64,000 nucleotides of DNA, taken from Hylemonella sp. GTDB lineage: Bacteria > Pseudomonadota > Gammaproteobacteria > Burkholderiales > Burkholderiaceae_C. Of the stretch, positions 901 through 39,239 are shown piece by piece. The stretch is taken from assembly GCF_027532185.1 (NCBI RefSeq), contig NZ_JAPZSV010000002.1:372001-436000 (forward strand). The letters are read 5' to 3'. The translations under genes and the position numbers were made by a program. The notes beneath the pieces are model-generated. The model was not told the origin of the DNA. It was given only the letters and a program-made list of their open reading frames with translations, and ran no database searches. Within the stretch, counting starts at the first letter, position 1. Every line of letters begins with the position of its first letter.

Positions 901-2339
901 AACTGCTCAGCACCACCGGCCTCGTGGCCCTCCTGCTCCTGCTGGCCGGCTGCGCCAGCAACCCGCCCGGCCCCGGCGCCCAGACCGACGCTCCCTCCTC
1001 CCTCACGACCCATGCCGAGACGGCGTTTCCCGCACCCAGCCGGCACACCCCCATCTACCCGCAGGGCGAACTGACGCCGATCGCTCCCCACGAGCCCGCG
1101 CCGCGCCGCGTGGCTGCCCTCACGCCACCGGACGACCTGTGGGAGCGCATCCGCAGCGGCTTTGCCATGCCCGACCTCGACAGCCCGCTGGTCCCGGGCC
1201 GTGAGCAGTGGTACGCCGCGCGCCCCCAGGATCTGGAGAACATGGCCGAGCGCTCGCGCATGTACCTCTTCCACATCGTCGAGGAGATCGAGCGCCGCGG
1301 CCTGCCCACCGAGCTGGCCCTGCTGCCCTTCATCGAGAGTGCCTACAACCCCCAGGCCTATTCGCATGCACGTGCCGCCGGCATGTGGCAGTTCATCCCC
1401 AGCACCGGAAAGCTCTACCAGCTCAAGCAGAACGCCTTCCGTGACGATCGCCGCGACGTGCTGGCCTCGACGCGTGCCGCGCTCGATTACCTGGAGCGGC
1501 TCTACGGCATGTTCGGTGACTGGCACCTCGCCCTCGCCTCTTACAACTGGGGCGAAGGCAGCGTGGGCCGGGCGATCGCCAAGAACAAGCGCATGAACAA
1601 GGGCACGGGCTACCTGGACCTGAACATGCCCATGGAAACGCGCTACTACATCCCCAAGCTGCAGGCCATGAAGAACATCGTGGCCGATCCCGGCAAGTTC
1701 AACATCAAGCTGCCGGTCATCGAGAACCACCCCTACTTCGACACCGTCAACATCACGCGCGACATCGACGTCGCCCTGGCTGCCAAGCTGGCCGAGGTGC
1801 GGCTGGAAGACTTCAAGGCTCTCAACCCCTCGCTGCACCGCCCGGTCATCCTGGCCGCGGGCACCTCCCAGATCCTGCTGCCCTGGGACAACGCCGCCAT
1901 CTTCCAGCGCAACCTCGACGCCTATGCTGGCGACCGGCTCTCCAGCTGGACCGTCTGGATCGCCCCGCGCAACATGACGCCGACCGAAGCCGCGGAGCGC
2001 GTGAAGATGAGCGAGGCCGACCTGCGCTACGTCAACCGCATCCCGCCTCGCATGCTGATCCGCGCCGGCTCCACCCTGCTGGTGCCCCGACCGGCCAGCC
2101 AGGAACGCGACGTGACCGAACGCATCGCCGACAACGGCCAGCTGCACTTGGCCCGCGAACAGGTGCCGCGCAAGGCCGGTGCACCGCGCCGCACCGTGCT
2201 CAAGGTCGGCCGCAAGGGGGACACCGTGGCCAACATCGCCCAGCGCTACCGCCTGCCCGCCAGCTCGGTGGCGCGCTGGAACAAGGTGAGCGAAAAAGCC
2301 GTCTTCAAGGCCGGCGACAAGGTCATCGTCTTCCTCTGA
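897..2339 (+). CDS. mltD: Membrane-bound lytic murein transglycosylase D with LysM domain(s)
   Basis: Lipoprotein signal LLAGCAS, SLT motif [27 protein letters not shown]-terminal LysM-like repeat. ATGA overlap with the gloB stop. Confidence 0.9.
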
Positions 2340-3206: not shown

Positions 3207-4024
3207 GCGGCCTTCCTCAGCTGCTGCTGGTAGCCCTTGAGCACCTCCTCGCGCAGCACGTCCCAGATCTGACGGTGCAGCTCGACGAAACGCGGTGTGT
3301 TGCGCACCTCAGCCACGTTGCGGGGGCGCGGCAGGTCGATGACGAACTCCCCGATCGGACGGGTCGCCGGGCCGGCCGAGAGCACCACCACGCGGTCACT
3401 CATGGCAATGGCCTCGTCCAGGTCGTGCGTGATGAAGAGCACGGCCTTCTTCTTGGCGCTCCAGAGTTCGAGCACCTCGTTCTCCATGAGCTGGCGCGTC
3501 TGCACGTCCAGCGCACTGAAGGGCTCGTCCATGAGGATGATGTCCGGATCCAGCGCCAGGGTCTGGGCCAGGGCCGTGCGTTTGCGCATGCCCCCCGAGA
3601 GCTGGTGCGGATAGCGGTCGCCAAAGCCCGCCAGGCCCACGCGCGCCAGCCAGTCCCCGGCCTGGGCGCGCGCCTCGGCCTCGGGCACGTCGCGGTACTG
3701 CAGGCCCAGCAGAACATTGTCCAGCGCGCTGCGCCAGGGCAGCAGGGCATCGGCCTGGAACATATAGCCCGCACGCCGGTTCAGCCCGCGCAGCGGCTCC
3801 CCGAAGACCCGCACCTCGCCCGCGCTCGGCGCCAGCAGGCCCGCGCCCACATTGAGCAAGGTGGACTTGCCGCAGCCCGTGGGGCCGACCACCGAGACGA
3901 ACTCGCCCGCCGCCACGCGCAACGTGGTGTCGGCCACCGCCGTGTAGGACGGTCCGCCGCCGGGCGCGGCAAAGGTGCAGGTGATGCCCTGCAGCTCCAG
4001 CGCGTGTGCGGCAGGATGCGTCAT
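3203..4024 (-). CDS. ABC transporter ATP-binding protein (SsuB/TauB-like)
   Basis: Walker A GPTGCGKST, signature LSGGM, Walker B ILMDEPFSALD. Confidence 0.9.
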   Translation of the reverse strand: MTHPAAHALELQGITCTFAAPGGGPSYTAVADTTLRVAAGEFVSVVGPTGCGKSTLLNVGAGLLAPSAGEVRVFGEPLRGLNRRAGYMFQADALLPWRSALDNVLLGLQYRDVPEAEARAQAGDWLARVGLAGFGDRYPHQLSGGMRKRTALAQTLALDPDIILMDEPFSALDVQTRQLMENEVLELWSAKKKAVLFITHDLDEAIAMSDRVVVLSAGPATRPIGEFVIDLPRPRNVAEVRNTPRFVELHRQIWDVLREEVLKGYQQQLRKAA

Positions 4025-36144: not shown

Positions 36145-36432
36145 TCAGGTCTCATACGAGGTGAGCAGTACGTCGGCCGCCTGCTCCCTGAGAGGGATGA
36201 GCGCCTGATAGGCGTCAGACTTGAACCACCCGTCGGCCGCAGCAAGGCTGGGGAAGCGTATGACCACGATGTCGGAATGCGGGTTGACACCAGCCAGGGC
36301 CGCGCGCTGTCGGCCCCGAAACACCAGCTCAGCGCCCCAGGGCTGCAAGGTGCCGGGCACCTGGTCGCGGTACGCGACCCATTTCAGGGGGTCTTTGACG
36401 GTGATCTGTCCGACGACGTAGGCGTGAGTCAT
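36145..36432 (-). CDS. DUF1330 family protein
   Basis: MTHAYVVGQITVKDPLKWVAYRDQVPGTL...DIVVIRFPSLAAADGWFKSDAYQAL. Confidence 0.85.
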   Translation of the reverse strand: MTHAYVVGQITVKDPLKWVAYRDQVPGTLQPWGAELVFRGRQRAALAGVNPHSDIVVIRFPSLAAADGWFKSDAYQALIPLREQAADVLLTSYET

Positions 36433-36524
36433 AACGGGGCTTTCCGGGAGGCCATTGGAAAAAAAGCAAGGTTTGCGGTCCACATAGAGCGGGGCCGTGC
36501 TGCACGTTCATCCTACGATGCCAT

Positions 36525-36588
36525 GCTGACGCTTGAGTTCAGGGCCGCCGCCGATAGGCGGAGCGTCTCCTGCAACGAAAGGTTAGGG
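36525..36588 (-). other. attC-like integron recombination site
   Basis: Minus strand CCCTAAC-CTTTC-GTTGCAGG-...CCGCCTATCGGCGG...-CCCTGAAC-TCAAGC-GTCAGC. L'' and L' pair with one extrahelical G; the layout closely resembles classical 59-be sites such as the aadA one (from memory). Confidence 0.6.
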
Positions 36589-36608
36589 ATATGAGCATCC
36601 GTCGCCAG

Positions 36609-37904
36609 CTAGATGAGTGCCCGAAGAGCTTTGAATTCACGTCGTATCAGTCTATGGATAGTGAATCGGGTCGGCTTTTCTCTTGATAACCTTTCAGTAC
36701 GAACTGGCTCGCTGTAAAGATGATCAATCTCATCCTGACACCCGTGTTGTGCAAAGTACTCGCGGGTATTGATCGCGGGTATCGGTGCATATGCGCCCGT
36801 CGTCTTGTTGAATACCGCGCCCTTCACCGCGTAGTGACCCAAGAGTTCACGCAGGCCAGAGTCAAACGTCAGGAACATCGGAATAAAGTACCGTCCATCA
36901 CCACCGGCGACGATAAGCCGCTCCATGAACCGAGGAGCTGCCATATCCCACGCGATATTGTCTAGTTTCTTCAGGAGCCCTCGCTTTCCGCCCCCTTTCT
37001 TGATCCTCTCCAACATCTCAATGGCGTTTCGATCGCAGAAGTACTTATGCGCGATGATGGCCTCCCGATCAAAGTACGCGCCTACAACCTCGTGGATATA
37101 ACTGAAAAACTGACCCATCTTGTGCTTTGCGCTCTTGCCAGATGACAACTGTATCTTGACCATCCCGATGAGTTGAAGAAGGATCAACCTCTGCAAAAGA
37201 ACGAAATTCAGGACATGATCTTTTCCGACTTCTGATGCGTAGAAATCGTAGGTGAAGTCGATCGCATAACGAGCAGCTTGTCGGAACGAAAACTCGGGAC
37301 GCGGATTACATGTTCTTTTGTATTCTTGACAATTGATGCTTCGAAAGATCTGCAGACTGACAAGATTATTTCGGAACCCCCTATTCAGAGATTTCCAGAA
37401 CTGCAATTTTGAGGACGGGTCGCGCTCGATTATTGGTAGGACGTTCTTGACATTTTCGGTCATGTAAAAGAGATGATCGAAATTAAGATCGTCATGCAAA
37501 ATGTCGTCTACCAGCGACACAACCTTTGATTGAACGTTGCCAAGTGATTCTCCGCGGACGAGCTTGTCAATGTACGTTGCGATGTTTGTATCAAACATCA
37601 CCGAATAATCAATACGAAATTGAAATTCTCCGGACGAGAACATCCCAGTAAGAAGCTCGTCGTCCAGAAAATATATCTTCTCGGAAGAAAAGTATGGCAC
37701 CAAATAGCTATGTGGCTTGCCAATGTACTTTTTGACGGACTGCGGGATTATTGCTTTGTCATATCTACCAAGCGCAACCATCGCCGAAAGGTCTGGGTGT
37801 TTTCTCTGAAGAATAGCCCAGGCTAACGCTGCATCGGACGGGTCTTCGGCTTTCGACAACGCAAACAGGCACATCTTTACCGCATCTTGGTTGAACTCTT
37901 CCAT
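36609..37904 (-). CDS. Orphan hypothetical protein with PIN-like motifs in a low-GC island
   Basis: Clearly AT-richer than its neighbours. Motifs DYSVMFDTNIATYIDKLV and FIPMFLTFDSGLRELLGHY resemble PIN acidic motifs. No confident family. Confidence 0.65.
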   Translation of the reverse strand: MEEFNQDAVKMCLFALSKAEDPSDAALAWAILQRKHPDLSAMVALGRYDKAIIPQSVKKYIGKPHSYLVPYFSSEKIYFLDDELLTGMFSSGEFQFRIDYSVMFDTNIATYIDKLVRGESLGNVQSKVVSLVDDILHDDLNFDHLFYMTENVKNVLPIIERDPSSKLQFWKSLNRGFRNNLVSLQIFRSINCQEYKRTCNPRPEFSFRQAARYAIDFTYDFYASEVGKDHVLNFVLLQRLILLQLIGMVKIQLSSGKSAKHKMGQFFSYIHEVVGAYFDREAIIAHKYFCDRNAIEMLERIKKGGGKRGLLKKLDNIAWDMAAPRFMERLIVAGGDGRYFIPMFLTFDSGLRELLGHYAVKGAVFNKTTGAYAPIPAINTREYFAQHGCQDEIDHLYSEPVRTERLSREKPTRFTIHRLIRREFKALRALI

Positions 37905-38146
37905 TTGACTAACGATAAAGGAAGTGAAATGTCCCTAACGTGAAGGTGTGCGGGGCTCGCGCAACGAGCATCCGTCACTACCGTCATGTTCCGTTTCGGT
38001 CAACAGCATCTCTTGGCACTTCGGTGCTAGATTCATACAGACCACTATTTTTTAACGGCCACTCTCGTAGCTGAGCCAGAGCGGCCGTACCAAGAGCTCG
38101 CTCTTGTTAGCGCGCTGTGGTAGCTACCTGAACTATCAGAAAACGG

Positions 38147-38200
38147 TGATCTACAAACAGCCTTCAGCGGTGTTAGCACCACTGTTTTAGCCGTAGATCA
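38147..38200. repeat. Nested inverted repeat (three paired segments)
   Basis: TGATCTAC-AAACAG-ccttcagc-GGTG-ttag-CACC-a-CTGTTT-tagcc-GTAGATCA. Confidence 0.8.
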
Positions 38201-38375
38201 GAATGTGACATGAACCGCAAAAATGCGGAATAACATGGATGGATGCTTATCTTGGCGCCTCCCTTTCTGCAAGCTAAGTGCTTGTTTTGTTTGAAGAATT
38301 TATGTCACTATAGCGCAGGGGCGCGCTCATGACAAATCGTATCACGCAGCGATCTAGCCATACGGCAATACCTCT

Positions 38376-39239
38376 TCAAACCCGTCGCAACAAAGCCTGC
38401 CCCGCCTTCACCTCTATCCCAGTTGTCATACCCACCACCAACTCCACACCCTTGGGCGCCAGCACCACGATGGTGGATCCGTGTTCGAACCAGCCCATCT
38501 CCTGCCCGCGCTTCAGCGGCACATCGCAGGCAATCACCTGCTCGCCCCGGTAATCGTGATGCAGGTTCAGGTTCAAAAAGTGCAAGCGCACGCTGGCCAC
38601 GAGGATGGCCCCCACGGGCACGAGCGTGAGGTTCTGGCCGCCGGGTAAGGCAGCCTCGATCACGGCGCGGTCGTTGCGACAGTAAAGACTGGGCACGCGC
38701 TTGAGCGCGATGGGGTTGACGTTCCACATATCGCCCTGGATGTGCGTGACGCGTTGTACCGTGCAGTCGGTGGGCGCGTGGAAGCGGTGGTACATGCTGG
38801 CGCGCAGGCGCAGAGTGACGTAGCTGCCGCCCTGCTGCTGCGCGGCCAGCTCGGCGCTGCCCAGTAGCTCCGTGAGGCTATAGGGCATGCCCTTGATCTG
38901 CAGCAACTCATCCCCTTCGATCCGACCGTGGCCGCCGACGATGCCGTCGCTGGGGCTGCAGATCACCTGCGAGTTGGCGTCGAAAGGTCGCGCGCCGTCC
39001 TTGAGTTCGCGCACAAAGCAGTCGTGCAGGCTGTCGAAGTGCTGCTTCTTCGCCTCGCTGAGGTCCAGCCCGCCAAAGAACTTGAAGAGTGCAATGGACA
39101 CATCACGCACCAGCGGCTGGCGTACCTTGCTGAAACGGCCAATGAAGCGCGTCAGCGCCACGCGGGGCAGGCGATTGGTGAGCACGAAGTTCAGGCTTTC
39201 CTGCTGCAGCAGGCGGTCAAGGATATTTCTGGATGTCAT
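38376..39239 (-). CDS. psd: Phosphatidylserine decarboxylase
   Basis: YHRFHAPTDCTVQRVTHIQGDMWNVNPIAL, C-terminal WFEHGSTIVVLAPKG processing motif. Confidence 0.9.
   Translation of the reverse strand: MTSRNILDRLLQQESLNFVLTNRLPRVALTRFIGRFSKVRQPLVRDVSIALFKFFGGLDLSEAKKQHFDSLHDCFVRELKDGARPFDANSQVICSPSDGIVGGHGRIEGDELLQIKGMPYSLTELLGSAELAAQQQGGSYVTLRLRASMYHRFHAPTDCTVQRVTHIQGDMWNVNPIALKRVPSLYCRNDRAVIEAALPGGQNLTLVPVGAILVASVRLHFLNLNLHHDYRGEQVIACDVPLKRGQEMGWFEHGSTIVVLAPKGVELVVGMTTGIEVKAGQALLRRV

Follow-up and report, generated by a model that had tools for sequence, protein, structure and literature searches.

A probable cassette array behind an orphan attI-type platform downstream of psd in Hylemonella, and related leaders across the genus

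The locus between psd and the DUF1330 gene

The DNA discussed here, which we call the window, is a 64,000-nucleotide stretch of Hylemonella sp. (RefSeq assembly GCF_027532185.1, contig NZ_JAPZSV010000002.1, positions 372,001 to 436,000; G000:C10:372001-436000 in our numbering), and the genome is of 3.33 Mb in 13 contigs and 100% complete. All features of the locus lie on the minus strand and are given in window coordinates. Two host genes frame it, psd for phosphatidylserine decarboxylase (38376..39239; Pfam PF02666, E=5.8e-56) upstream and a DUF1330 gene (36145..36483; PF07045, E=2.7e-20) on the right flank. Between them is a gene for a protein of 431 aa (36609..37904) in DNA of low GC content, with 46% in 37001-38000; for most segments of 1 kb the figure is 60-73%.

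An earlier note, made from the sequence alone, had pointed to an attC-like string beyond this gene. The string is present at 36524..36588, with R'' (CCCTAAC, 36582-36588) ending 20 nt beyond the ORF's stop codon and a right junction G/TCAGCATGG, and the site is genuine by a covariance search. The model used, R1, was trained apart from the window locus, on attC sites of true integrons elsewhere in the order. An intI search of the order found the gene in 60 of 150 genomes, and 20 adjacent arrays were taken, in which a structural rule gave 77 attC candidates against 2 in shuffled copies. R1 was then built from 39 short attC sites aligned on the R''/R' and L''/L' stems, and the stem covaries in this alignment. 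On both strands of the 64-kb window R1 finds one attC, at 36524-36588 on the minus strand (24.6 bits, E=2.9e-4), the runner-up having 8.5 bits. The low-GC gene is thus followed by the R''/L''/L'/R' hairpin of an integron gene cassette.

The earlier note had also proposed a cassette of about 1.4 kb with a core-like GTTAGGG (37933-37939) as its 5' end, and this holds. R'' CCCTAAC and GTTAGGG are fully complementary over seven nucleotides, as a circular cassette requires, and the cassette is therefore 36530..37938, 1409 bp, running from TTAGGG to AAGCG. Its sequence was not found at any other psd locus compared. The gene is a foreign one. It would be conceivable that the ORF and its flanks were vertically inherited and the attC-like site a chance one, and in minimum-energy folding the site is indeed not set apart from shuffles (z -1.2 to -1.7). 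Against this stand the R1 E value, the full boundary complementarity, the absence of the gene from the locus in congeners and the low GC content. The congeners refute such a coincidence, and we consider it extremely improbable. Judged by its sequence the low-GC gene is an integron gene cassette, the second in a probable row of two, and it may have been open to excision and integration by IntI.

Searches of Pfam, NCBIfam, PADLOC and the PDB with the 431-aa sequence gave nothing significant, and no relatives were found in the plasmids, phages and viral contigs searched. There are relatives of 53-61% identity in Pseudoalteromonas luteoviolacea, Pseudomonas lactis and a Gallionellaceae MAG. Just ahead of the Pseudoalteromonas gene an attC of 20.8 bits ends, so that the gene is seen to move as a cassette in distant hosts too. 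The Gallionellaceae relative is directly 3' of mutS. A distant relative (24%) is present in a congener at L041 (G041:C36), on a contig that also carries, at a distance of about 22 kb, a stop-bearing intI-like fragment. The conserved MFDTN, E and FD motifs of the protein might be taken as a resemblance to PIN-like nucleases, which is a guess. An AlphaFold model from four sequences had a pLDDT of 42 and was set aside.

Ahead of cassette 2 there is a further segment, 37939..38203 (265 bp), with no convincing ORF, which is likely to be a first cassette with a decayed attC. The argument comes from a fold and from end complementarity. The putative attC, 37933..37994, has R'' ACGGAAC (37988-37994), L'' GGTaGTGaCGG, L' CCGCACACC and R' GTTAGGG, and its bottom strand gives a bulged hairpin of attC type (-16.4 kcal/mol, z -4.0, none of 200 shuffles as stable). 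Its R1 score of 6.6 bits is not significant alone. The 5' end of the segment, (G)TTCTGA, pairs with R'' by 5 Watson-Crick and 1 wobble of 7 positions in a hand count. The RNA fold of the region is also unusually stable (z -4.9), with several hairpins that may represent a small RNA or a structured 5' region; Rfam, scanned in full with the region, cassette 1 included, gave no match.

The 11-bp direct repeat GAGCATCCGTC in the earlier note is present at 36593-36603 and 37966-37976, the second copy inside the decayed attC-1 hairpin and the first just ahead of R''. We give no meaning to it; by our rough estimate about 0.2 such pairs are expected by chance in 1.4 kb. We considered it as a target-site duplication and rejected this, as the copies bound neither cassette.

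The leader and the psd locus in related species

Between psd and the likely first cassette is a leader (38196..38345), recognised by alignment with seven orthologues at psd loci, four paralogues in the same genome and a leader adjacent to intI in congener G015. The leader model R2, which was built from these aligned leaders, matches it with 75.5 bits (G000:C10:410202-410288). Read from the sequence, it has a candidate promoter Pc (38307..38335) with TTGTCA (38330-38335) and TATAGT (38307-38312) separated by 17 bp; the predicted promoter of the orthologues is TTGTTA/TATATT with the same spacing. A decayed uORF of ORF-11 type follows (38201..38263), with SD GGGAGG at 38258-38263 and an ATA start at 38248-38250, where most congeners have ATG. 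The attI core (38202..38204) is ATT and is mostly GTT in congeners, the change being G to A at 38204. With both the core and the uORF start mutated, the window platform is probably frozen and inactive at present.

The leader is also downstream of psd in seven congeners (G003, G005, G013, G015, G016, G020 and G023), so that the earlier note's lone cassette stands at a locus common to eight species, behind the leader and a likely first cassette. The plan is the same throughout: a promoter-like pair with 17-bp spacing, CAAGCACTTAGCTTGC, GGGAGG and an ORF of 16-18 codons running to the core. In G005 the uORF product is MSIRPCYPALLRSISR followed by the stop, and in most species the uORF stops in the TAG of GTTAG. 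Identity of psd is 79-92% in the platform-carrying congeners, that of the DUF1330 gene is 77-91% in G016, G020, G005 and G023, and on the DUF1330 side the window, G005, G016 and G020 have flanks of 87-92% identity to one another. The DNA past the core is mostly unrelated between species; only G013 and G015 have cassettes in common, and other similarity between inserts amounts to short matches and one segment in G003 and G023. With leader and flank conserved and inserts differing, the position is vertically inherited while its cargo turns over. The comparison with relatives that the earlier note had proposed, for reading the empty site, thus gave a retained leader with changing inserts, and no empty platform was found at the psd locus among the congeners compared.

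The classification of the leader as attI-type depends on G015, which has an intact integron elsewhere in its genome (intI at 1643185). There a leader of the same plan lies between intI and the first cassette and ends MNFVMPTDLRPISS and a stop within the core, and it is homology to this segment that makes the psd-locus leader an attI-type one. In the window this homology is the basis for the attI, the core itself being mutated, and no intI is beside it.

At the psd loci of G013, G015 and G023 (L066, L065 and L070) a second attI-like copy is found directly before the promoter (GATGTTATTCCGCACTTTTGCGGGGTTTCACGGTTTGTTAG in G013), and the promoter unit is thus flanked on both sides by attI-like cores. 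As a general feature of leaders this left copy was rejected, since it beats all shuffles at only 15 of 40 loci and is not in the window.

We have to consider whether a single cassette was put by IntI at a chance secondary site of the attG kind, with no attI involved. The right junction is GTC and not GTT, which the earlier note had read as possible decay or a possible junction with a non-attI secondary site; PMC12444791 mentions reports of cassettes having spread to attG sites of a non-classical kind; and IntegronFinder misses attI outside class 1 (PMC9024848), so that such loci appear to have no attI. The GTC is better seen as the right junction of the array, as the same G/TCAGCATGG is found in G016 after a different cassette. 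The recipient of an attG event is neither attI nor attC, whereas on the left of cassette 2 there is a likely first cassette and then a leader homologous to the attI of an intI-bearing integron, at a position kept in eight species, and at leader loci in general every attC match is downstream of the leader on the same strand. We give the attG-like interpretation little chance.

We suggest that the order at the locus is psd, leader (promoter, SD, uORF and attI core), cassette 1, cassette 2 and the DUF1330 gene, and that this is very probably a small array behind an orphan attI platform, its cassettes once inserted by an integrase from elsewhere. The cassettes would have been joined at the platform core by an integron integrase, encoded by an intI that has since disappeared or brought in transiently by another element. 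Once inserted they would be transcribed from the predicted promoter of the platform. The uORF would close in a stop codon provided by the GTTAG core of the incoming cassette, and its end may hand ribosomes to the first cassette gene, as ORF-11 does in class 1 integrons.

Leaders, attC sites and integrases in the genome and the genus

The earlier note had found no integrase in the window and had suggested a search of the chromosome for intI and other attC sites. The first was not found in the whole genome, where only XerC/XerD-like matches were obtained, and the second gave ten attC at six places with R1, at least five attC loci in addition to that at psd. Four of these five places start with a full leader, and the fifth, on C13 (L105), has the last 35 nt or so of one. 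L105 (G000:C13:385000-395000, at 3346-3378) is a truncated platform with a three-attC array directly after the stop of a host gene. At three separate loci on C5, C9 and C12 (L104, L107 and L108) there are near-identical attC (about AGTCAAGCGCCGATCGCCTACGGCGTCGGCTTACTTCAAACGTTA), a home-grown attC family as is seen in large chromosomal integrons.

Across the genus the leader is present in 19 of 26 genomes by R2, in up to 14 copies, although R2 was trained on 13 of the leaders later counted and the counts are to that extent circular. The highest numbers are in G015 (14), G018 (11), G009 (9) and G020 (8), with 7 in the window genome, and the weakest matches are fragments. By R1, attC are in 19 of 26 genomes, exactly those with the leader, and the same seven lack both; this concordance is not circular, because R1 was trained elsewhere. 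In contrast intI is above the cut-off in only two of the 26 and a protein search gave no further full gene; some congeners are fragmented MAGs, for which a missing intI is weak evidence, but G018 and G003 are single-contig genomes. At 45 leader loci all 40 attC matches are downstream on the strand of the leader. Of the 38 leaders that could be scored, 35 have an open uORF (48 or 51 nt) that keeps the frame of the core, a count inflated by shared ancestry. There are two types of leader with different peptides, in which SD, start and frame are kept. A sample of 198 family genomes from beyond the genus gave 4 with a leader match, with attC there too, and no leader was found in viral contigs or plasmids.

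Two explanations for so many platforms can be considered. One is that many complete integrons once stood separately at these places and each lost its intI there, leaving the platforms as remnants. Among the origins proposed for CALINs is the loss of a recognisable intI (PMC8618304), the intI-like fragment of G041 contains a stop, and at L128 (G010:C24) a remnant of the C-terminal end of intI (47% over 55 aa; 1157-1321, minus strand) is just upstream of the leader and opposite to it, possibly an intermediate of such a loss. Apart from this remnant, intI-like sequence near leaders is confined to the intact G015 and G023 loci, and no other trace of it was seen within up to 1.5 kb around more than 40 leader loci, although the intact G015 intI starts about 160 bp away from its leader. 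Grouping of the upstream flanks of 40 leaders gave 27 groups, which also argues against in-place loss. We regard loss in place as a possibility to be taken seriously, though somewhat less likely than not.

The other explanation is that the leader unit of attI, promoter and uORF is itself mobile and has multiplied and spread along the chromosome, perhaps through recombination between flanking attI-like copies. A single integrase, passing through or resident in few lineages, would then feed many separate promoter-equipped landing pads in trans, giving a distributed integron. This is a speculative proposal and rather unlikely as it stands. With pads that stay in place, up to 14 per genome, while their cassettes change between species, the choice between service in trans and dead debris is directly testable by means of one integrase and the natural attI sites.

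Relation to known integron systems

In databases, attC clusters without an integrase are about as numerous as integrons. The name CALIN, from the IntegronFinder work of Cury et al, denotes a cluster of attC sites lacking an integron-integrase. IntegronFinder 2 defines it by at least two attC with no intI nearby; the psd locus has one that is significant and one at 6.6 bits, and no intI. The likeness to CALINs is in attC-bearing cassettes on a chromosome without intI near them, and the difference is that here each array opens with an attI-type leader that has promoter and uORF, is homologous from array to array and recurs many times in a genome.

CALINs, conserved CALIN positions (in Xanthomonas, PMC12444791), attG integration and ORF-11-type ORFs in attI are already known. 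No description of dispersed, multiple or integrase-less attI sites was found in the open-access literature, nor one of multi-copy, dispersed, integrase-less attI platforms throughout a genus, to which standard integron tools would be blind. As attI is not modelled outside class 1, searches that model attC and intI only overlook a whole component.

The platforms resemble sedentary chromosomal integrons, such as that of G015 and the Xanthomonas ilvD locus, in having an attI-type leader, a candidate Pc-like promoter and attC cassettes in one orientation, but at the window locus and in its genome there is no intI.

They share with attG integration, as cited in PMC12444791, and with the delta-attI-type cassettes, units with attI on both sides that can excise (PMC12901181), that the products of IntI lie outside a classical attI-attC array. 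They differ in that the recipient is an attI homologue, and in that only a minority of loci have the promoter unit enclosed between attI-like copies.

With regard to ORF-11 in attI1 of class 1 integrons, PMC8876359, citing Hanau-Bercot 2002, has the stop coming from the cassette core and translation feeding the first cassette gene. The platform family similarly has an SD and a short ORF across the attI crossover with the stop supplied by the GTTRRRY core of a cassette, an arrangement lost in the window copy with its ATA start. The platform peptide is unrelated to that of ORF-11, is of about 16 codons and not 11, and is found at multi-copy orphan sites. The recurrence of the ORF-11 design with a different peptide suggests a general way of translating captured genes.
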